From a virus, in the IMG/VR virus record IMGVR_UViG_3300030116_003110, positions 1 through 64,000 of that record: a stretch of 64,000 nucleotides of DNA. The stretch is one strand, 5' to 3'. Positions 1,519-57,473 of this stretch are shown piece by piece. The position numbers were made by a program, and so were the translations under genes. The stretch's first letter is position 1. Every line of letters starts with the position of its first letter. The notes beneath the pieces were generated by a model that was not told the origin of the DNA, made no database searches, and saw nothing but the letters and a program-made list of their open reading frames with translations.

Positions 1519-4500
1519 ATGGCTGATTCTGCTAAAGATTTTATTGTCAAACAGAACCTAAAAGTTGTAGGTAATATTGTCTCCGCTGGTGCGGGGTCCG
1601 TATTTACTGGTGACGGTTCTCAGTTGGATGATGTAAATGCTGCAACTCTTGGTGGAGAAAGTGGTGGCTTCTATAGAGATGCTACTAACTTAAATGCTGG
1701 TACAATCAACAATGCTAGACTCCCTGCAACTATTACCAAAAATCTTACAGGTAACGTAACAGGTAATGTTGATGCTACAGGTGGTTCTGGTACAGTAGAT
1801 GCAGACTCTGGTAGGTTTACAACTATCTCTGGTACTACAGCATCCTTTACTTCTTATGCTGGTGTATTTGGTGGATCACTTAGTACATTTGATGAAGCTC
1901 TTGATAGTTCCTTTACAAGAAACAGATTTAAAGCAACAGTCTTTGATCCAGTATTTGACAGTTCATTAAGTAGAAAGTCTGCTGATGATATTTCTGATGG
2001 TGCAACAAATAAATTCTATACCACTCCTAGATTTGATTCAGACTTTGGTACTAAAACTACTACAGAACTCAGTGAAGGTACGAACAAGTACTATACTGAA
2101 GCAAGAGTAGACTCTGACATTACTGGAACAGTAAACAAAGCATTTGTAGATGCATTAAACATTAATGCTGATCAAGTAGATGGTGTAGAAGCAGCATCCT
2201 TTGTCAGAAGTGATCAAGCTGATACAATTGCAGCTGACATTACTTTCAGTGATGGTAATACTCTTAAACTTGGTACAGGTGGTGACTTAGAAGTTTACCA
2301 TGATGGTTCCAATTCCTACATTAATCAAACTGGAACTGGTAACTTAATTGTTCAAGCAGACTCTGCCACTAGAATTACTGTAGAAGACGCTAAAGTTGAT
2401 GTTAATGGTTCTTTTGAAGCAGATAGTATTTTTGCTAGTAATGAAGTAAGAGCATATGATTTAAAAGCAAACCACTATATTTGGGTATATGAATCTGCTC
2501 AAGGATTGATTGCTGGTCACCTTGAAGGTACAGGAACAACTGGATTAGAACTCCACTATCACTCTACCACACCAGATGGTGGATTTCTTATCTATGCTCA
2601 TGATAGTCAAAGTTTAGATGGAACACTTCAGGCTAAATTTACATTTTCTGAAGGTGTAGAGTTTGAAAACCAAGTTCTTCACCTTGTAGCAGACCCTATA
2701 ATCGCTACAGACGTTGCAAACAAGAGATATGTAGATAATACAGCACAAGGACTGACAGTAAAAGATGCGGCTAGGGTTGCAACTACGGTTGCATTACCCG
2801 GCGCAACATACTTTAATACAGCAGGACCAGACTCTGGTGTAGGTGCTGGTTTTGACTTCAGCCCCGGTCTTGACTCTCTGGACAGTATTCCACTTGTCGC
2901 TGGTAACAGAATTCTTGTTAAAGACCAAGCATTACCATTCCAAAACGGTATCTATGTTTATGACTCTTCTACAAGAATTACCAGAGCAACAGATGCTGAC
3001 TCTCATGGTGAACTTGGCGGTGGTGTATTTGTATTCGTTGAAGAAGGTTCAACTCAAGCAAGTAACGGTTATGTAACCTCTCACAGTATTAACAACCACA
3101 AAGTAGGTGCAGATAGTGTAATCTGGACACAGTTCTCTGGTGCCGGATTTATTGAGGCAGGTAAAGCCCTTGTAAAGTCTGGTAACACTATTGACCTTAA
3201 CCTAAACTCTACTACATCTGGATTAGTAGTAACTGCTGATCAGTTGTTAATCAATACTGGTTCTGGTCTTGAGATTGCATCTAATGCACTTAGAGTGCCT
3301 AATGACGGTATCAAAGACTTCCATATTGACTTTGGTACAGGTTCTAACCAAGTTAGCACTACAGACGTTCCAGAAGGCACAAACCAGTACCATACAACTG
3401 CTAGAGCAAGAGCAGCGATTTCAGGTAACGCTGGTATCTCTTACAACTCAAGTACTGGTGTTATTCAGACAGCAGTGACAAGTAATGGTGGTACTTTCGG
3501 TAGTGCTTCTGCTATTCCAGTGATTACGGTTGATAGTTCTGGTCTTGTGGATAGTGTTGGTACTGTTCCAGTTGCTGGTGTGGATAGTGTTGCTTATGAC
3601 TCTTCAAATGGCGTTTTAAGTTTAGTTCTTGGAGATGGTTCCACTAAGACAACTCCTATCGTTCTTAATCCGTTCTCTACTAGCAACTTATCAGAAGGCA
3701 CAAATCTTTACTACACCGATGCTAGAGTACAAACTCTTGTAGATAGTGCTTATCTTGATGACTTTGTAGTTCCTATCTCTAGAGAAGGGTATGACTCTGG
3801 ATTACTGGCACCATTTGCTAGAGCAGCAATTAGTGTTTCAGGTGATGGTGTTACCTATAATCAGGGAACTGGTGTAATCACAGTTCAAACTGTAACCAAC
3901 TCTTTCCAAGTTACACAGTCTGCCCATGACCTTAAAGAAGGCCATGCAGTCTATGAAGATGACACATTAGGATTTATTAGAGCTCTTGCAACAGACTCTG
4001 GTGAAAAACTTGCATCTCACGTTGTAGTACAGTTTGTTGACTCAAACAACTTCAAGATTGCTCAGAACGGTATCTTTACCTTTGAGACAGCAAACCCCGG
4101 AAAAGCACAGACATATACTGCGGGTGAATATTACTACCTGAGTAGTGCAGACTCTGGTTTGGCAGTAACTGCACAGCCTGGAAACACTTCGGTACAACCA
4201 TTGTTCTATGCACTTGACAGCCACCAAGTTGAGTTGAACGTTGAACATGCTATTAACGTCTTCTCTCCTGATGAACCTATCAATGTAAGTAGAACTGCTG
4301 GTAACTTTACAATTACTGGTAACCTGAAAGTTGAAGGTTTAGGTGTACCAAGAGTAACAACTCTTTCTAGTGGTGATACTTACTCGTTTGATAGTGGTAA
4401 CGTTGCAAAGATTGAATTCAGTGCAGATGCTTCCTTGGTCTTTGATAGTCCCGGAACAACATATGATGGTGCTGGATTTACCATTCTTGCAAAGAACACT

Positions 4501-49930: not shown

Positions 49931-50532
49931 TGAAATATGATAGTCCATGGCCACATATGATTGTGGATGATTTTTTAGAAAAAGAAGACATTGATTCACT
50001 TTTAAAAGAAGCAGAAAATATTTTAGAACTTGGTGAAAAGCCAACAGTGCGTCACCGATTACTGTGTCATTGGGATTGTGCAAGTAATACAGTTAAATCA
50101 AAAGTAGATTTGAATGAAGATATTAATTTTCGTGGTGCGTATGTTAGTGAGGTAGAACATTTACCAAAAAAGTATGAACCAAAATTGAAAAAAATATATA
50201 AACAATTCAAAGAAAAATCTCCAAAGCATACATCTGTGTTAATGGAATTAATGATTTGCAATGAAAAATTTCAATATAAAATTCATGATGAAAGTCCATA
50301 TAAACTTTTAAGTACAGTAACTTATATTTCAAAAGATGAAAATAACGGCACGACAATGTACACTTCCGAAGAAGATGAATATTCTAATCCAGAAAAAAAG
50401 GTTGAGTGGTTGCAAAACAGATGCTTTATTTTTTCAGGAGAAAGAGGTAGGACTTGGCATGCCTTTTCTTCTAATGGGAAAAATATCAGGATTACTTTAA
50501 ATTTATTTTTAACAGAAGATAAAAGCATATGA
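49930..50532 (+). CDS. 2OG-Fe(II) oxygenase-like protein
   Basis: A 200-aa protein starting SPWPHMIVDDFLEKEDID, a common start of phage 2OG oxygenases. Candidate ligands are KIHDESPYKLL (HxD type) near residue 117 and TWHAFSSNGKNIRITLN, giving the distal His and the 2OG Arg. It overlaps the genes on both sides (TAATG, ATGA). Probably modifies the same unknown substrate pathway as the carbamoyltransferase; inference from coupling. Confidence 0.72.
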   Translation: MKYDSPWPHMIVDDFLEKEDIDSLLKEAENILELGEKPTVRHRLLCHWDCASNTVKSKVDLNEDINFRGAYVSEVEHLPKKYEPKLKKIYKQFKEKSPKHTSVLMELMICNEKFQYKIHDESPYKLLSTVTYISKDENNGTTMYTSEEDEYSNPEKKVEWLQNRCFIFSGERGRTWHAFSSNGKNIRITLNLFLTEDKSI

Positions 50533-51275
50533 TTAAAATTATTAAAAATGCAATGGATCAAACTGATTTTAATGGATTACTTGATTTTGTGACCGCATTT
50601 GATCAACTACAAAGACTTCAGGAATGGAAAAGCTTTGGTAAATTCTGGCATATGAATCCGAAAGACAGAGAAAAATTTTTTGATGAATCTACCGATTCTC
50701 CAACGTATCTTTCTTTGCACTTCTGTAAAGACCTTACACCACTTTTAATGAAATCTTGTGCATTTTCAAGTCGCAATAATCAAGACAAGTTTTATGATTC
50801 TAGAACTGATGAGAATAGTCATAGACATAGTATTTTTAGACCAGAGGGCGAGACAGGACACTTCTATTACAAAAACACTAAAGACCTACTTCTTACCTTC
50901 AACCCCTTTGTTGAAATAATGTGGGAATGTAAAGGAGAAAGTACTCCTAGAAGTTTTGAAATATCATTTTGTCACCAAAAAGATAATATCAGTTTTGAAT
51001 CATACAATGTAGATTTATCTGATGAACATGAGCAACCTTGGGAAGCATATAATTTTGGTTGGTTGAATACTGAGGAAGTTCCTGTTACTGTAAAAATTGA
51101 ACAGGAAGAAATTACTCTAGAACCTAATACCCTTGTGATTTCAGATAAGATCATTGAACTAGCAACTCCATCTGAAGATTTTGTGTTTAGTATCAAATTT
51201 TATCTGACAAACGGCACAGACAAATTGATTGATCATAATCATGAAGCGTTTGTTATCGTGGAAGATTTTAAATAA
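50529..51275 (+). CDS. Hypothetical protein of carbamoyltransferase cassette (248 aa)
   Basis: It overlaps the oxygenase stop (ATGA). Contains LEPNTLVISDKIIELATPSEDF and RPEGETGHFYYKNTK, with many aromatic and acidic residues suggesting a beta-rich domain in the second half. Not recognised. Position makes it the third member of a coupled modification cassette. Confidence 0.5.
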   Translation: MIKIIKNAMDQTDFNGLLDFVTAFDQLQRLQEWKSFGKFWHMNPKDREKFFDESTDSPTYLSLHFCKDLTPLLMKSCAFSSRNNQDKFYDSRTDENSHRHSIFRPEGETGHFYYKNTKDLLLTFNPFVEIMWECKGESTPRSFEISFCHQKDNISFESYNVDLSDEHEQPWEAYNFGWLNTEEVPVTVKIEQEEITLEPNTLVISDKIIELATPSEDFVFSIKFYLTNGTDKLIDHNHEAFVIVEDFK

Positions 51276-51280
51276 AATTC

Positions 51281-51300
51281 TATACGATAGTTGAAAAAAA
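51281..51300 (+). repeat. Promoter-upstream repeat, copy 1
   Basis: The 20 bases TATACGATAGTTGAAAAAAA recur exactly at 62356-62375, in both cases just upstream of a TTGCAA/TATATT promoter. Confidence 0.8.
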
Positions 51301-51303
51301 GGC

Positions 51304-51332
51304 TTGCAATCTTTCTCCAAAGTGATTATATT
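51304..51332 (+). promoter_or_regulatory. Sigma-70-type promoter for small early genes
   Basis: TTGCAA, 17 bases, TATATT. The -10 and following bases (TATATTAAGTATGTAA) are identical to the promoter at 62390. Confidence 0.75.
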
Positions 51333-51360
51333 AAGTATGTAACAGAGAGAAAGAAACGTT

Positions 51361-51546
51361 ATGCTTAATCGTATCCCCCTCAACGTTAAGTCTTTGCAGA
51401 AGATTGATGCCCACCTTGACCTTGTAGATGAGCTGCTTGTTAAGATGGACCTCCCACGTTCTGTAAAGCACAGTCTGTCCAAGTACACTTATGAAATGTA
51501 TGCTGCACTAGAAGCGGCAGTAGATGAGTACACTCCCTCCAACTAA
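51361..51546 (+). CDS. Small hypothetical protein (61 aa)
   Basis: Helical, no Cys: MLNRIPLNVKSLQKIDAHLD, then LPRSVKHSLSKYTYEMYAAL. It follows the repeated promoter with a GAGAGAAAG-rich leader. Probably an early host-interaction protein; not recognised. Confidence 0.55.
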   Translation: MLNRIPLNVKSLQKIDAHLDLVDELLVKMDLPRSVKHSLSKYTYEMYAALEAAVDEYTPSN

Positions 51547-51558
51547 AGGGTAATAGTT

Positions 51559-51924
51559 ATGAAATATAAAGTTCTTCAAATCCAGCTCACCGATGCTGAA
51601 GTTGATATGGTCAATGAAGGCGTGCAGGTTCGCAAGCATGTACTCAAGACTCACATGTTTGGTAAGAAAGTTGTTTCAAACGCCTCTAAGGCCTTGGAGT
51701 TGGGTTATTACGATCATGTAATGACTGTTGATGCTAACCGCCTTGAAGATGTATATGCCATTGGCAACTTTATGCATGAGCGTGACCTTGATAAAGTTCA
51801 GGTGCATGGCACTTTCTCTTCCGTCTCTGTAGGTGACGTGGTTGTAGATGAAAACGGTTGGGGGTTCGTAGTTGATATGTTCGGATATGAAATGCTCCCT
51901 GAGAAAATTGAAAAGGGAGTATAG
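51559..51924 (+). CDS. Hypothetical protein (121 aa)
   Basis: Opens YKVLQIQLTDAEVDMVNEG and has a beta-type C-terminus (VSVGDVVVDENGWGFVVDMFGYE). RBS AAAGGG lies upstream. Similar small proteins occur in marine T4-like phages. No function can be given. Confidence 0.55.
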   Translation: MKYKVLQIQLTDAEVDMVNEGVQVRKHVLKTHMFGKKVVSNASKALELGYYDHVMTVDANRLEDVYAIGNFMHERDLDKVQVHGTFSSVSVGDVVVDENGWGFVVDMFGYEMLPEKIEKGV

Positions 51925-51926
51925 CA

Positions 51927-52151
51927 ATGATGGAACATCTTGTAAATCGTATCATCCGTGATAACACTTGTGTTATTGAAGGTTCTGTAGATGAACTGCA
52001 TGAGGCATGGCGTTATGTTCGGCAATGGGTTATGGAAGAAGAGTGTAAAGAACGTAAGATTGACCATGCATGGATTCGTCAGTTGAATGATGCAGAACAT
52101 GCTATCAGTGAACGTGTAAAAGAACTGACAGCAGCAGGACGGCAATATTAA
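51927..52151 (+). CDS. Hypothetical protein (74 aa)
   Basis: Two bases after the previous stop. Charged helical protein with YVRQWVMEEECKERKIDHAW. Not recognised; part of the small early operon. Confidence 0.5.
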   Translation: MMEHLVNRIIRDNTCVIEGSVDELHEAWRYVRQWVMEEECKERKIDHAWIRQLNDAEHAISERVKELTAAGRQY

Positions 52152-52181
52152 TTTTTTTTTGAAAAAAGTTCATTTTAGGTC

Positions 52182-52210
52182 TTGACATTTACTCCATTAA
52201 TCACTATATT
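52182..52210 (+). promoter_or_regulatory. Sigma-70-type promoter for second small-gene operon
   Basis: TTGACA, 17 bases, TATATT, followed by a GAGAGAGAAAGG leader like those at 51340 and 62430. Confidence 0.78.
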
Positions 52211-52244
52211 AATAGTGTAAGAGAGAGAAAGGAAAAAGGAGTAA

Positions 52245-52373
52245 ATGAAAAACCTTCTCAAAAAACTAAACCAAGTTGACGAAACTACGCTCATGGCGTT
52301 TGTCGTCATTTCTGCGCCTGCTTCTATGGTAGCCGCAGTTGCTATCATTACTATTCAACTTCTTCTCAAGTAA
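52245..52373 (+). CDS. Very small membrane protein (42 aa)
   Basis: A basic start (MKNLLKKLNQVDE) and one membrane helix (FVVISAPASMVAAVAIITIQ). Strong RBS AAAAGGAG seven bases before the ATG at 52245. First gene after a good promoter, so likely real despite its size. Confidence 0.55.
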   Translation: MKNLLKKLNQVDETTLMAFVVISAPASMVAAVAIITIQLLLK

Positions 52374-52383
52374 CGGAGAAACT

Positions 52384-52668
52384 ATGACTATCGCTAAAAC
52401 CATCCTTGCACAAATCAAAATCGCTGACCCTTGGGCTATGGGCGCATGGGGTGCTAAACAACTTGTCGCTAAAGAAGATGGTCTTCAGTTCAAGACTAGT
52501 GGTATGGTTAAGTGGAAAGGTATTGTTCAAGTCATCTATGATGCTGCCCTTGACCTTTACAACGTTGAATTCGGTCGGATTCGGAAGTATGAATACAAAG
52601 TTGACAAGAAGATTGAAGGCGTTTACGCTGATCAACTTGTAGAACTGATTGACGGCCAAGTGGGGTAA
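52384..52668 (+). CDS. Hypothetical protein (94 aa)
   Basis: ATG at 52384 with ACGGAGA upstream. Contains DPWAMGAWGAKQLVAKEDGLQF and VQVIYDAALDLYNVEF. A soluble protein conserved in my memory among marine T4-like phages but without known role. Confidence 0.55.
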   Translation: MTIAKTILAQIKIADPWAMGAWGAKQLVAKEDGLQFKTSGMVKWKGIVQVIYDAALDLYNVEFGRIRKYEYKVDKKIEGVYADQLVELIDGQVG

Positions 52669-52672
52669 AAAT

Positions 52673-52909
52673 ATGTTTGAAGTAATCTATCGTTTTACCA
52701 ACATCAACGAACAGTTTGAAGATGTTCGGTGTGATGTGTTTGACACCATTGAAGAAGCTCGGGAGTACATTCTAGAGCAGTTTGATGGTTTGATTGAAGG
52801 CACTACCGATGATGAAACTGGTAAAACTATGGTTGAGGAAGAAGGTTGGTACGAAAACTTCATTCTTGACAAATATGAGATTCGTAAGATGGAGGTGACT
52901 CTCAACTAA
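52673..52909 (+). CDS. Hypothetical acidic protein (78 aa)
   Basis: ATG at 52673. Opens MFEVIYRFTNINEQFED and has an acidic helix (TIEEAREYILEQFDGL). Its stop is directly followed by the late promoter of the tmRNA. Unknown function. Confidence 0.55.
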   Translation: MFEVIYRFTNINEQFEDVRCDVFDTIEEAREYILEQFDGLIEGTTDDETGKTMVEEEGWYENFILDKYEIRKMEVTLN

Positions 52910-52917
52910 TATAAATA
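52910..52917 (+). promoter_or_regulatory. Late promoter for tmRNA
   Basis: Exact TATAAATA overlapping the end of the preceding gene's spacer. Expected start near 52923, so the acceptor piece would have only a short leader. Confidence 0.75.
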
Positions 52918-52920
52918 ATC

Positions 52921-53165
52921 TTGTTCGTTGATGAAGCGAGCGGAACGTATGCAGGACCGGGGGGCAGTACCCCGCTGGTCCACCATAAGGGTATCAAGGT
53001 ATCTTTGTGATGGGCCAGAACTAGGATCGACTGGTGCGGGATGTGAGTGGAGACAAACCGATTGATACCGTAAGTATCAAATTAAAGTAAGAGCAAACAA
53101 TTATGTAGCTCCTTCTCGTTACGCTCTCGCAGCGTAATCTGAGTTGGGTTCGTATCGGGGAACCT
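52921..53165 (+). ncRNA. ssrA: Circularly permuted two-piece tmRNA (SsrA RNA)
   Basis: tmRNA rescues stalled ribosomes and tags the peptide. The order is permuted: the acceptor piece comes first. It has a T-arm stem CGGGG/CCCCG (52958-52974) with a seven-base loop, then CTGGTCC, A and an encoded CCA (52975-52985). After a 26-base spacer the coding piece begins GGGCCAG (53012-53018), which pairs with CTGGTCC (one G-T pair). Next comes ACTAGGATCGACTGG, matching the conserved tmRNA D-region. A tag frame follows at 53093-53137, then a GGTTC/GAACC stem. This permuted form is known mainly from alphaproteobacteria and some other lineages. 5' and 3' ends are approximate. Confidence 0.88.
53093..53137 (+). 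other. tmRNA tag reading frame ANNYVAPSRYALAA
   Basis: A 14-codon frame beginning GCA AAC, as in most tmRNAs (Ala-Asn resume), and ending in ALAA before TAA. The terminal ALAA is the ClpXP-type degradation signal seen in bacterial tags (E. coli tag ends YALAA). It is preceded by an A-rich, GTAAGA resume region. Confidence 0.88.
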
Positions 53166-53176
53166 AGAAACAGAAG

Positions 53177-53193
53177 GGGGGCAATATGCCCCC
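53177..53193. terminator. Hairpin between tmRNA and convergent operon
   Basis: GGGGGC pairs with GCCCCC over a five-base loop. No long T run on either strand, so termination strength is uncertain, but it sits exactly between convergent transcripts. Confidence 0.6.
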
Positions 53194-53201
53194 TACTCGA
53201 T

Positions 53202-53690
53202 TCAATTTGCTAACGGATTATCCAATGCTTCTTGGATTTGAGCAGACAACCTATCATCAACCTCTTTGATCTTTCTGTCTGTCTCACCATACAACGCATC
53301 ACGTTTTCTATCAAATCGTTCATCCGCTGCATCTATCATATCTCTGACTTCAGTTTCAGTTTCTCGCATATCATCTTCTAGTCTATCAACTAATGTTTCA
53401 ATACGAGTAACATCATCTTTCAAATCATTTTTAATCTGTCTGGCATAGTCAGTTGCTTGGATAACAGAGTCTTCTGTGCTAACCATCTTCTGCTCTATGA
53501 CAGATAGTTGTTCTTGGAATCCGCTGAGATCAGGTGCTACATATGATTGGATCATTTCTTTCATGTCCATGTAGTCTTTGTAAACTTCAAAGCCACCATA
53601 CAAACCACCCACAAGGGTTGATAGACCCATAGCAACAGCTACCATTCTACCACCCTTGAACTTGATCCCAGCAAATTCTATTTCTGCCAT
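53202..53690 (-). CDS. Membrane-anchored coiled-coil protein (162 aa)
   Basis: The N-terminal half has one membrane helix (VAVAMGLSTLVGGLYGG, residues about 16-33), followed by a long coiled coil (residues 45-155) with many charged heptads, ending in LDNPLAN. Last gene of the minus-strand late operon. Topology suggests a cytoplasmic-membrane anchored rod; function unknown. Spanin-like or structural roles are possible but unsupported. Confidence 0.6.
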   Translation of the reverse strand: MAEIEFAGIKFKGGRMVAVAMGLSTLVGGLYGGFEVYKDYMDMKEMIQSYVAPDLSGFQEQLSVIEQKMVSTEDSVIQATDYARQIKNDLKDDVTRIETLVDRLEDDMRETETEVRDMIDAADERFDRKRDALYGETDRKIKEVDDRLSAQIQEALDNPLAN

Positions 53691-53691
53691 T

Positions 53692-54018
53692 TTACTTCTT
53701 CATTCCTTCAATACCTTCCTTCGCATAGAATGCCGCTACAATAGCAGCAACCGATACAAAGTAAGTTGGGGCAATATCTTTTAGCAGACCAGAAGCAGTC
53801 TCCTGACCTATGAGAGAGGATACAATAATAGCAAAAGGATAGAGCAGCATACCAGCAAGAGCAAACCACGCCATGCCTCTTTGAGCATCCTGTTTTTTAT
53901 CGTCGTTTTCAATTTGGAGCATTCGCTCCGCTTTAGCCATTTCTTCATCTGTTACAATACCGTCGCCGTCTTCATCAAATTGATTGTAGATGGAATCTTT
54001 TTGTAACGTCTTAGCCAA
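53692..54018 (-). CDS. EF-hand membrane protein (108 aa)
   Basis: Residues about 15-26 (DEDGDGIVTDEE) form a canonical 12-residue EF-hand calcium loop with Asp at 1, 3 and 5 and Glu at 12. Two hydrophobic helices follow (residues about 50-69 and 84-99). TTG start is supported by GGAGG five to six bases upstream within the end of the preceding gene. A calcium-responsive phage membrane protein is inferred; no close family is recognised. Confidence 0.62.
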   Translation of the reverse strand: MAKTLQKDSIYNQFDEDGDGIVTDEEMAKAERMLQIENDDKKQDAQRGMAWFALAGMLLYPFAIIVSSLIGQETASGLLKDIAPTYFVSVAAIVAAFYAKEGIEGMKK

Positions 54019-54256
54019 TGGAACCTCCTAAGCCTTGCATTGCTGATGTTAATTGTGGTGCAAAAGAAGATGCAGCCCACAGCATAAGTGCAATAGCACC
54101 TACACCGATAACTACCCACTTCATCTTCATATCATCTACACTCATTTTAATACCAATAAGTTCATTACTCAAAATGCGCAGAGATAATTCCATCTTACCT
54201 TCTGGCATATCAATTGGAACTTGTGGTTCCTGATTTGGTTTTTGCTCTTCAGCCAT
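54011..54256 (-). CDS. Small single-helix membrane protein (81 aa)
   Basis: A Pro/Glu/Gln-rich start, a polar helix around ELSLRILSNELIGIKMSVDD, and one membrane helix (WVVIGVGAIALMLWAASSF). It overlaps the nuclease stop by TAATG with AAGGA upstream, and the EF-hand gene by eight bases. Coupled expression suggests a membrane complex with its neighbours. Confidence 0.58.
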   Translation of the reverse strand: MAEEQKPNQEPQVPIDMPEGKMELSLRILSNELIGIKMSVDDMKMKWVVIGVGAIALMLWAASSFAPQLTSAMQGLGGSIG

Positions 54257-54714
54257 TATTTTATTCCTTCATCTAAAATATCTTCTAAAATAACAACACC
54301 CTTGTTAACCAGTCTTTCTCTATTGGAAAGGTGCATTGCTTGAATATCATCTTTATTTTGACCATGATATGCAACTGCATGGCCTTCTTCAATCATAACT
54401 TCAGTCAGTAGTTTCTTGTCTGGACTTACATAGAAGTCACCAAGAATTCTACCAAACTTACCTTTCATATCTTCACCGTCTTTTGCTGCAAATGTTTTCA
54501 GAATTACATTTGATTGTAATAATTCTTTAACCCTTTCTTTTGCTGCAAGACCGAATAACTTTTCAACCGGATCACGGGTTCTAGATTCTGGTGTATCAAT
54601 GCCCATGATACGAACACGTTCATTTTTGAGCCAAACACCAAACCCTAGATCAATGTCAACATCAACTGTGTCTCCGTCAACTACTTTGATCAAGTTTGCT
54701 TTATACTCGTACAT
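54256..54714 (-). CDS. Staphylococcal-nuclease-like protein (thermonuclease family)
   Basis: The SNase fold is clear: VVDGDTVDVDIDLGF with the calcium Asp pair, RIMGIDTPESR with a catalytic Arg, and DMKGKFGRILGDFYV in the third part carrying the second Arg. 152 aa. No signal peptide is visible, so it is probably cytoplasmic. Strong RBS GGAGTAA upstream. Late timing argues against early host DNA breakdown and for a role in virion or lysis; inference. Confidence 0.88.
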   Translation of the reverse strand: MYEYKANLIKVVDGDTVDVDIDLGFGVWLKNERVRIMGIDTPESRTRDPVEKLFGLAAKERVKELLQSNVILKTFAAKDGEDMKGKFGRILGDFYVSPDKKLLTEVMIEEGHAVAYHGQNKDDIQAMHLSNRERLVNKGVVILEDILDEGIK

Positions 54715-54724
54715 TTTTTTACTC

Positions 54725-55171
54725 CTATTGAGGATAGAACTGCAACTGTCTGAGTTGCTGTATTTCTTGTTCTAATCTCATTACTTCTAATTGTTTCTTT
54801 CTTAATTCTAATTCATATAATCTATTGCAATCAATTCTTGCTTTTGGTTTTTGACCTAGTGGAATTGTTATGCGAGCAAAAATGCCTACATCACCCACTC
54901 TTTGTTCAACATATCCGGCTAGAGGATCAGTGTATCCCCGGCCGACAATTCCGGTCACTCCAAACTCTAGGTTTGTAGCAGAACCAATTGCATTTGAGCA
55001 ATCTAGATCACCAGCTCTGAACTTGTCTGATTGATAATTACCGGGAGCGGAAGGTAGAGACAAGTTTAATGAACTGGACTGTCCAAATGCAACTGTACTT
55101 GCAATCAAAATAAAAAATAATGATAACAAAAACATTCTTATGAAATTATAATGTATCATACTTTTGAGCAT
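54725..55171 (-). CDS. Secreted protein with C-terminal coiled coil (148 aa)
   Basis: The signal sequence is FLLSLFFILIASTVAFG with cleavage likely near residue 30. The mature part has a SAIGSATNLEFGVTGIVGRGY segment, an RITIPLG strand, two Cys, and a C-terminal helix with LELRKKQLEVMRLEQEIQQL. Three in-frame ATGs exist (55171, 55159, 55135); the first is given. Periplasmic or surface location is inferred. Not recognised. Confidence 0.58.
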   Translation of the reverse strand: MLKSMIHYNFIRMFLLSLFFILIASTVAFGQSSSLNLSLPSAPGNYQSDKFRAGDLDCSNAIGSATNLEFGVTGIVGRGYTDPLAGYVEQRVGDVGIFARITIPLGQKPKARIDCNRLYELELRKKQLEVMRLEQEIQQLRQLQFYPQ

Positions 55172-55530
55172 ATCCTACTGTTAATACCAGATGATAATTC
55201 ATTATCAACTAATAGTCTTGACGTGGTACAGATATATTCAATTCTGTCACAATCAACTTCTCTAATATAAATGTCAATTTGTTTCTGTTCCAAATACCCC
55301 ACTTCAATTAATTGTTCTGAAGCAGCAAATGGTACAGGATTCCATTCTTCATCATAAACATCAATTGCATAGTATTCTACCTCTTTTCTCTTATTAAAGA
55401 GTTTCATTTTGGTCACCACAATTCCATCCATAAAAGATGGTTCAAACTTGGGATAGGTTGGTGTCCATTCATGAGCATGTGCGGTAGTGACCATAAAGGC
55501 CGCCACCACCGCAGAGATAAAATATTTCAT
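55156..55530 (-). CDS. Secreted chaperone-like protein (124 aa)
   Basis: It starts on a TAATG junction with the preceding gene (ATG at 55530). Signal peptide MKYFISAVVAAFMVTTAHA. The mature protein has VVTKMKLFNKRKEVEYYAIDVYDEEWNPVPF and later RLLVDNELSSGINSRICSKV, two Cys, and a beta-rich look that recalls the N-domain of PapD-like pilus chaperones. That likeness is a weak inference. The coupling to the pilin-like gene fits. Confidence 0.5.
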   Translation of the reverse strand: MKYFISAVVAAFMVTTAHAHEWTPTYPKFEPSFMDGIVVTKMKLFNKRKEVEYYAIDVYDEEWNPVPFAASEQLIEVGYLEQKQIDIYIREVDCDRIEYICTTSRLLVDNELSSGINSRICSKV

Positions 55531-56027
55531 TAATTGGCAATGCACTCTGCTGTAATATTAGCAGTGTAGTCACCGCCGGGGAAAGATTTGTCATAACCAT
55601 AGGTCACACTGGATTCTACCTTGAACCAAGTAGAACCTGCAACCGTAAGATCAAATTCAGTAACATTGTCGTATTCTACTTTTGCAGCTTCATAACCAGA
55701 CATACCAGCATCTGATGTAGAAGATACAGATACTTCTCCGTCCCAATTCAAAGCATCACTTAAGGATGGAGATGTAGCAAATTCATTTGGCCAACTAATT
55801 TTAGCAGTATAGTAGTCTGCAACTGTAACATCATATCTTACCACCGGATCAACACCACCCTTGATTGGGTCGGTATCTAATTCATCAGGGGCTGGGTTTC
55901 CATATACACCAGCAACGTCTGTGTAGATAGTACACTTAGAGGAAACGTTACCAGTAATGGGAATGTTTTCTGCAAAAGCAGGTGCTGCTACAGCAAAGGC
56001 AACAGCGGCTGAGATAACTCTTAACAT
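55530..56027 (-). CDS. Secreted pilin-like/structural protein (165 aa)
   Basis: Signal peptide LRVISAAVAFAVAAPAFA cleaved near residue 19. The mature protein begins ENIPITGNVSSKCTIYTD and ends with AECIAN, so a Cys near each end could form one disulphide, as in fimbrial or spore-coat-U-type subunits. RBS AACGGAGA is strong. Beta-rich, no membrane helix. A surface or virion subunit is inferred. Confidence 0.55.
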   Translation of the reverse strand: MLRVISAAVAFAVAAPAFAENIPITGNVSSKCTIYTDVAGVYGNPAPDELDTDPIKGGVDPVVRYDVTVADYYTAKISWPNEFATSPSLSDALNWDGEVSVSSTSDAGMSGYEAAKVEYDNVTEFDLTVAGSTWFKVESSVTYGYDKSFPGGDYTANITAECIAN

Positions 56028-56038
56028 TTAATTCTCCG

Positions 56039-56950
56039 TTATTGGTCTCTATCATATTGAGAGCGTACCATAGAATAATGTGTAGCATCTGATGCTAGTT
56101 GTCTCAACGCCCTGTTATTATCAGGTAATGTTGTGTCTTCTAATTGTAGAGTATCTGTCAGTTCTAAAACGTCTTGATATTCTACTTCATAGTATGGTTC
56201 AATCGTAGGTTGACTTGCCAGTTGGATTAGAATGCTGTCTTGTAGAGCAACATCAATTAAACCACCAACGTTTGGATCAACCATAAAACTTTTTTCTAAA
56301 TTTTCTTCTTCTTCAAATTCTTCATTTTCATTTTCAGCCTGTTCTTCTTCAACTTCAGTTTGTTGCTCAAGTTGAAACTGTACCCATTCATCATAATATG
56401 GATCATCTACTGAAACATCTTCAAGAGAAGCTAAGTATTTATACAAAGCATCCAAATATCCGGGGCATGTTGGGTCCGATAATGGTGTAGTACATATAAT
56501 CTGTTCTTCACCAATATCCATTTTATACAAGTAAATAACAGAAGCGTCACTTACTGTTCCATTACCTTCAATGGTAATACTACCATCGCCCCAATTGACT
56601 GCATCACTTTCTGTGAATCTGAAATATTTTTTGATAGAGTTTCCGGGTAAACCGGACCAATCATCTACTTCCTCAAAAATATAGCCACCATTTGTCGCAT
56701 CTTCATTACGCACATAAACCTGAACATCTTCAGCAGGGTCTTTAGACATGACATAATAATATGTTAACCCATTGATCTGCAACGATACATGTGGTGCAGA
56801 GTGGTCGGGTAAAACATCACCCATTGTCCATGCTAGAGCATTTGCGGCAGCGTTGTTAGTTACGCCGTAAACACTATCCGCCCAAGAGAATGGCGAGCAG
56901 ACCAAGGACAACAGCACCGCCAATGATGGTAGTGCGAGTTTCTGGATCAA
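56039..56950 (-). CDS. Secreted acidic protein (303 aa)
   Basis: Signal peptide LALPSLAVLLSLVCSPFSWA cleaved near residue 24. An N-terminal beta domain (to about residue 180) contains CTTPLSDPTCPGY; then a PYYDEWVQFQ segment and an extremely acidic Glu-rich linker (residues about 198-218), then a polar C-terminal domain. A TTG start at 56950 overlaps the upstream gene by 77 bases, which is long; a later start is possible but would remove the signal sequence. Related proteins occur in marine T4-like phages, without known function. Confidence 0.58.
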   Translation of the reverse strand: MIQKLALPSLAVLLSLVCSPFSWADSVYGVTNNAAANALAWTMGDVLPDHSAPHVSLQINGLTYYYVMSKDPAEDVQVYVRNEDATNGGYIFEEVDDWSGLPGNSIKKYFRFTESDAVNWGDGSITIEGNGTVSDASVIYLYKMDIGEEQIICTTPLSDPTCPGYLDALYKYLASLEDVSVDDPYYDEWVQFQLEQQTEVEEEQAENENEEFEEEENLEKSFMVDPNVGGLIDVALQDSILIQLASQPTIEPYYEVEYQDVLELTDTLQLEDTTLPDNNRALRQLASDATHYSMVRSQYDRDQ

Positions 56951-57473
56951 TGTTCATTCCTCTACTACTTTGTGGAGAGTCTGGACGCTTATATTCGTTT
57001 TCAGGGTCTTCCCATGCAGACTTAGCTTCTTCACCAATTGTACCATCAATGGGGCAAGGTGTCCCTGCATCCATCATAGCTTGGAAGACTCTTGGGTCTT
57101 GACACATAACTGATACTGCGGCTACTTTCATGCCCATATCGTATAGTAGACTTGCATTCTTGAGTTTTTCGCAATTCATGTCTCTTACTGTAGAACCAGC
57201 GGAGATACCAAGAATTTGCGTTTGCACTGCACCTGATACACCAACTGTGCATAAGTCGGATGTTGAATTATTGATGCTTGGAGAAATTGCAGATGGTGGT
57301 GGAGATATTACCGTTGTAGTTGAATCACTAGTAGAAGTTACTGTGCTAGTGGTTGTATTTTCTGTTACAATCGGATCAACATCAGAAGTTGTAGTTGTAG
57401 TTGTTTCATCTTGCGCATATGCTGCTGTAGCCAAAAACAACATTACAAAAGCAGCAAACATTTTTTTAATCAT
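56874..57473 (-). CDS. Secreted Ser/Thr-rich membrane-anchored protein (199 aa)
   Basis: First gene of the minus-strand operon. Signal peptide MIKKMFAAFVMLFLATAAYA, a low-complexity Thr/Ser linker (residues about 24-62), a conserved core SDLCTVGVSGAVQTQILGISAGS with CEKLKNASLLYDMGMKVAAVSVMCQDPRVF (Cys-rich), and a C-terminal membrane helix (TIIGGAVVLGLLAILLGG). Similar cores are conserved in marine T4-like phages. Late promoter upstream. Function unknown; an envelope location is likely. Confidence 0.6.
   Translation of the reverse strand: MIKKMFAAFVMLFLATAAYAQDETTTTTTSDVDPIVTENTTTSTVTSTSDSTTTVISPPPSAISPSINNSTSDLCTVGVSGAVQTQILGISAGSTVRDMNCEKLKNASLLYDMGMKVAAVSVMCQDPRVFQAMMDAGTPCPIDGTIGEEAKSAWEDPENEYKRPDSPQSSRGMNIDPETRTTIIGGAVVLGLLAILLGG

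Follow-up and report, generated by a model that had tools for sequence, protein, structure and literature searches.

A permuted alpha-type tmRNA gene behind a T4-type late promoter box in a T4-like marine-type phage, and protein genes in the spacers of its phage relatives

Permuted tmRNAs of phages and the locus analysed

Permuted tmRNAs of marine phages had already been published in 2022, when 53 two-piece structures, 50 of them marine or aquatic, were described in phage genomes, including that of the T4-like phage Melnitz (PMC9004378). The tmRNA considered here is therefore not the first of its type, and the first-pass annotation of this DNA, which had called phage tmRNAs rare, overstated the case. 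Another count gives 79 phage tmRNA sequences, and it is known that one permuted tmRNA has a tRNA gene in its spacer and another a repeat, while LAGLIDADG genes occur in the group I introns of standard tmRNAs (PMC11915505). The one-piece tmRNAs of mycobacteriophages (Bxz1, Wildcat and others) and of Bacillus phage G are phage-encoded like the one studied here, but they are not permuted (PMC4131195).

We analysed a stretch of 64,000 nucleotides (below, “the window”) from an IMG/VR virus fragment of 71,909 bases. The record contains a gp23-type major head protein, a portal, a large terminase and uvsX, which bears out the earlier assignment to a T4-like phage; the carrier is a T4-like phage of marine type. 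The closest named phages by capsid are C48C1, Stenotrophomonas phage DLP_6, Melnitz and Pelagibacter phage HTVC008M (61–66% identity). The whole C48C1 record gave no permuted tmRNA match, and no DNA-level relatives among cultured phages were found for the window tmRNA or for locus L203.

Melnitz (MZ577097) resembles the window in having a permuted gene in a T4-like phage, an alpha-like sequence and a TATAAATA box just 5' of the RNA; its tag, ANDNYVPVDYALAA, is counted as a further likeness. The two differ in the acceptor stem (CGCCTCC/GGGGGCG in Melnitz, CTGGTCC/GGGCCAG in the window) and in the spacer, which is 142 nt long with an ORF in Melnitz and 26 nt long in the window. In addition, a glutamine riboswitch was reported near the Melnitz tmRNA, whereas an Rfam scan of 50000–57200 in the window revealed no such riboswitch, only the tmRNA models and chance-level matches. 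With the two-piece tmRNAs of alphaproteobacteria (RF01849, RF04321), the window gene shares the order of parts, the T-loop type, the D-loop, the CCA, the G3.U70 pair and a degradation-type tag; it differs from them in its exact acceptor/D-loop string, GGGCCAGAANTAGGATCGAC, which has no match in 84,980 species genomes, and in the T4-type late box, which is absent from the bacterial controls.

For the same lack of a match, the host cannot be named from the tmRNA string, and a host-like T-arm pattern led mostly to alphaproteobacterial MAGs with no host singled out. The expectation that a permuted tmRNA would point to the host group proved a poor guide, since Melnitz infects OM43, which is non-alphaproteobacterial, yet has an alpha-like tmRNA (PMC9004378); the tmRNA type can thus mislead on the host. 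No SmpB gene was found in the 71.9-kb record or in five further phage records with a tmRNA; the protein must therefore come from the host.

Structure of the gene and its conservation among close relatives

The region 52923–53203 of the plus strand is a permuted, alpha-type tmRNA gene. The identity proposed at first reading was confirmed with two Rfam covariance models: tmRNA_permuted (RF04321) matched 52923–53137 with 99.5 bits against a curated cut-off of 47 (E 3.7e-18), and alpha_tmRNA (RF01849) matched 52881–53185 with 67.2 bits against a curated cut-off of 50 (E 3.3e-16). ARAGORN, with the settings as run, made no call of this gene. The locus had been placed at 52921–53165, which is right as to the place; the 5' end lies at about 52923, where the RF04321 match starts, while the 3' end was set slightly short and should be moved to about 53203, because the stem of the last pseudoknot encloses a further hairpin (Table 1). 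This hairpin also resembles a terminator for the opposite-strand genes ending at 53202.

Table 1. Positions of the parts of the window tmRNA gene and of spacer ORFs in related loci
Feature	Position	Strand	Basis or remark
T4-type late promoter box TATAAATA	52910..52917	+	sequence; position kept in clade
Acceptor (tRNA 3'-half) piece	52923..52985	+	RF04321 alignment, independent fold
T arm of acceptor piece	52958-52974	+	RF04321 alignment, independent fold
Acceptor 3' strand CUGGUCC (DNA CTGGTCC)	52975-52981	+	RF04321 alignment, independent fold
Encoded ACCA	52982-52985	+	directly after CUGGUCC
Predicted excised intervening spacer, 26 nt	52986..53011	+	folds; prolongs acceptor helix into precursor hairpin
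Coding piece	53012..53203	+	RF04321/RF01849 alignment, clade alignment; 3' end placed from last pseudoknot stem
Acceptor 5' strand GGGCCAG	53012-53018	+	coding piece start
D-loop UAGGAUCGAC	53022-53031	+	coding piece
Helix of coding piece	53063-53079	+	
Tag frame ANNYVAPSRYALAA, resume codon GCA, stop TAA	53093..53137	+	sequence
Last pseudoknot	53154..53201	+	stem AUCGGG 53154-53159 / CUCGAU 53196-53201
Hairpin GGGGGGC-AAUAU-GCCCCC within last pseudoknot	53176-53193	+	clade alignment
Spacer-ORF loci	L405 8788-9250; L409 13794-14260; L279 1874-2521	-	
Spacer-ORF loci	L349 (Melnitz) 2942-3394		plus about 55 others

The 3' half of the acceptor is encoded ahead of the 5' half, and their pairing spans the spacer. 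The single-strand fold of the RNA gives z = -4.2, and the minimum-energy structure holds the acceptor stem, the CCA and the spacer in one long hairpin. The first-pass annotation had recognised the encoded CCA behind the acceptor half and the pairing of its CTGGTCC with GGGCCAG; both are present, and the stem is paired in all seven positions, including the AlaRS determinant G3.U70 (G 53014 opposite U 52979). The tag frame was likewise correctly located in the coding half.

Close relatives were sought with a coding-half pattern, which found 12 contigs, 11 loci being usable for alignment with the window. The acceptor stems of these loci (CUGGUCC/GGGCCAG, CACCUCC/GGGGGUG, CGCCUCC/GGGGGCG and CUGCUCC/GGGGCAG) are all paired 7/7, the CCA having been picked in the alignment by full pairing. 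The coding half is common to the clade, and G3.U70, the CCA, the D-loop UAGGAUCGAC, the tag start AN and the tag end ALAA are conserved. Wherever it is readable, the tag has the form ANNYVAP..YALAA: the window's ANNYVAPSRYALAA is also found in L404 and L409, ANNYVAPK[AT]YALAA occurs in L100, L400, L403, L405 and L407, and ANNYVAPKAYALAA can be read as the tag in L401 and L408. The last pseudoknot stem, compared by eye in 11 sequences, varies on both sides, being UUCGGG/CCCGAA in L407 and GAUGGGA/UCCCAUC in L405, L406 and L408. Hence related phages preserve the two features on which the first reading had staked its interpretation, namely the acceptor pairing (via compensatory change) and the tag frame.

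The acceptor pairing was also counted in the broader set of phage tmRNAs, which was collected via three DNA patterns and uvsX relatives and is therefore a non-random sample whose counts include related contigs: with T-arm and D-loop anchors picked irrespective of pairing, 154 of 169 acceptors are paired 7/7, compared with a mean of 61 when partners are reshuffled, and 10 of the 15 below 7/7 are displaced from the fixed offset by one or two bases.

Two relatives bear on how stable the gene is. L404 has the same tag, downstream gene and acceptor-half start as the window, while its block from the T stem via the acceptor and spacer to the D-loop differs, so that this part of the gene looks exchangeable. 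In L004, whose uvsX is 93% identical, the 23.6-kb contig gave no RF04321 match, yet the neighbouring genes are present; the tmRNA gene is thus dispensable or replaceable in this lineage.

Late promoter box and the proposed working of the gene

The late box TATAAATA lies 5 nt upstream of the first base of the window tmRNA, and TATAAATA or GATAAATA stands 72–73 nt before the ACCA in all 11 clade loci. Among 200 unique phage permuted tmRNAs, an exact box is situated 66–80 nt before the ACCA in 126, and a box with at most one mismatch in 161. An earlier phage set gave an exact box in 116 of 186, whereas neither a control offset nor shuffled upstream sequence yielded any. No exact late box was seen in the bacterial control, which comprised 44 detections from 43 loci, two of the detections being plainly false; the nominally “bacterial” contigs L329 (late box and ORF) and L335 (ORF) were taken to be probable phage contigs within MAGs, L355, from the contig behind L335, is probably phage, and locus L104 was excluded as a false detection. 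Further exact plus-strand boxes in the window (11759, 14184, 15776 and 20173) are situated just upstream of structural genes. We infer that the box before the tmRNA is a working late promoter, in line with the guess of the first-pass annotation that the RNA acts late in infection.

Since the box is kept at a constant distance, we read the tmRNA as late-expressed and using the host SmpB and AlaRS. It is a genuine, probably functional permuted tmRNA, and we regard it as highly likely, judging start, processing, charging and function from the sequence, that the locus is a working permuted tmRNA gene of a T4-like phage. In the mechanism that we propose, the phage-modified RNA polymerase would initiate from the late box, which would place the 5' end of the RNA on the first acceptor-half base or close to it. 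The precursor would fold with the acceptor halves, the CCA and the spacer in one long hairpin, from which host tRNA-processing enzymes would excise the spacer, leaving two RNAs joined via the acceptor stem and the neighbouring helix. The product would be charged by the host AlaRS via G3.U70 and delivered by the host SmpB to stalled ribosomes, where the tag A-ANNYVAPSRYALAA would mark the protein for ClpXP-type proteolysis. The phage would probably gain from ribosomes that go on cycling in the late phase, at a time when mRNA is being cleaved and host genes are no longer expressed; T4-like phages of marine bacteria would then depend on trans-translation, or adjust it, once infection has passed its midpoint.

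The Melnitz authors proposed early expression, with host proteins being tagged and recycled, from a predicted early promoter in that phage (PMC9004378). Although read-through from upstream early genes may possibly occur, we consider this timing improbable: the TATAAATA box precedes both the window and the Melnitz tmRNAs, its distance is constant in most phage tmRNAs, and no sigma-70-like promoter was found on the plus strand at 52700–53400. Somewhat less probable still is that the phage tmRNA is a decoy which competes for the host SmpB or AlaRS and so blocks host trans-translation. A tmRNA-like RNA that lacks a tag, in mycobacteriophage DS6A, is given as an inhibitory case (PMC11915505, PMC4131195), and phage tmRNAs often have acceptor-stem sequences of their own, but the tag frame with its resume and stop codons and the ALAA end, for which a decoy would have no need, are all kept in the clade. 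Capture of a host gene kept by chance, whether as a relic without function or as an old integration site, is very unlikely and was rejected: integration into tmRNA genes is common, and the Melnitz authors raised capture from a temperate phage, but the gene is complete at both ends with the late box at a constant distance, every clade member is fully acceptor-paired, with compensation, despite sequence change, and the absence of GGGCCAGAANTAGGATCGAC from the species genomes means that it is not a fresh host copy.

Protein genes in the spacers of phage permuted tmRNAs

The spacer of the window tmRNA is empty, with no ORF in it. Long spacers are common in phage permuted tmRNAs generally (median 97 nt), and the spacer often holds a protein gene, which is not the case in the bacterial controls. 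A sense ATG ORF covers at least 60% of the length in 53 of the 85 distinct spacers that reach 100 nt, and an antisense one in 1. The longest genuine bacterial control spacers (232 and 115 nt) have no spacer-filling ORF, in a control that mixes best-scoring matches, which favour short spacers, with ten loci picked for long matches. The enlarged set of 200 phage tmRNAs yields 60 distinct spacer ORFs, with 11 families of at least two members.

There is good support for reading these ORFs as protein-coding. In the seven largest families, the median dN/dS, taken over non-independent pairs, is 0.07–0.42 in-frame versus 0.70–4.0 in the two shifted frames, and an SD-like motif is situated upstream of 38 of the 60 ORFs versus 13% at random positions. 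Their stops cluster: 22 ORFs stop a single base short of the coding half, and another 18 stops lie 13 bases into it, in the D-loop. The Melnitz spacer ORF, preceded by a GGAG motif, is unannotated in its record, where the tmRNA feature covers the ORF; this shows why automatic annotation misses such genes.

The families include HNH endonucleases (phrog_655, E 7.2e-17; Pfam HNH above cut-off for one), whose genes are found in the spacers of L045/L411, L095, L137, L279, L416, L417 and L434; the families also include small proteins, probably of the membrane. HNH spacers occur with several different acceptor stems, and the tmRNA score of the HNH-bearing loci L279, L095, L137 and L416 is still above the Rfam cut-off. 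Some relatives of the spacer HNH endonuclease sit outside tmRNA genes. In spacers of at least 50 nt (n = 158), the longest helix of the closing stem has a median of 12 bp, compared with a mean of 6 in shuffles.

We think it likely that the phage spacer is an exchangeable protein-gene “cassette” set in a conserved closing stem, transcribed from the late promoter and excised, so that one transcript would give both a structural RNA and a small protein. Two clade relatives, L405 and L409, have a spacer ORF, and L409 bears the exact tag of the window; in the window, the locus that carries the ORF in these phages would be represented by an allele with an empty cassette. One can speculate that the spacer ORFs are translated from the tmRNA precursor and that the HNH endonucleases drive cassette exchange.

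A structural RNA gene whose discarded spacer itself contains protein genes is an apparently undescribed arrangement. We found no mention of such protein genes for permuted tmRNAs in the open-licence papers that our search covered, a scope which makes this silence a weak sign of novelty. Group I introns with endonuclease genes represent a similar nesting, whereas the carrier in phage tmRNAs is a spacer removed, as we suppose, by tRNA-type processing and not by self-splicing.

Several minor observations concern individual loci. In L401 (2522–2766) and L408, a TATAAATA box is also present inside the spacer, just upstream of the coding half (GTATAAATAATTATGGGGCAG), and in L279 one is also situated upstream of the HNH ORF; parts of these tmRNA genes may have late promoters of their own. 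The genome behind L337 (Rhizobium rosettiformans W3) has a second RF04321 match, L357, and thus two permuted tmRNAs with different tags, one of which may be carried by a prophage or a plasmid. Directly upstream of the Melnitz tmRNA, gene 85 (L349, 2738–2938) is a free-standing relative, at 40–66% identity, of the “IWHILLTVC” family of spacer ORFs. In the window itself, 54011–54256 of the minus strand encodes a small membrane-type protein that by eye resembles the spacer ORF family of L211, L277 and L292 (ELSLRILSNELIGIKMS versus ELCLRFFGNEILAIKLA) and is possibly a free-standing relative of it.
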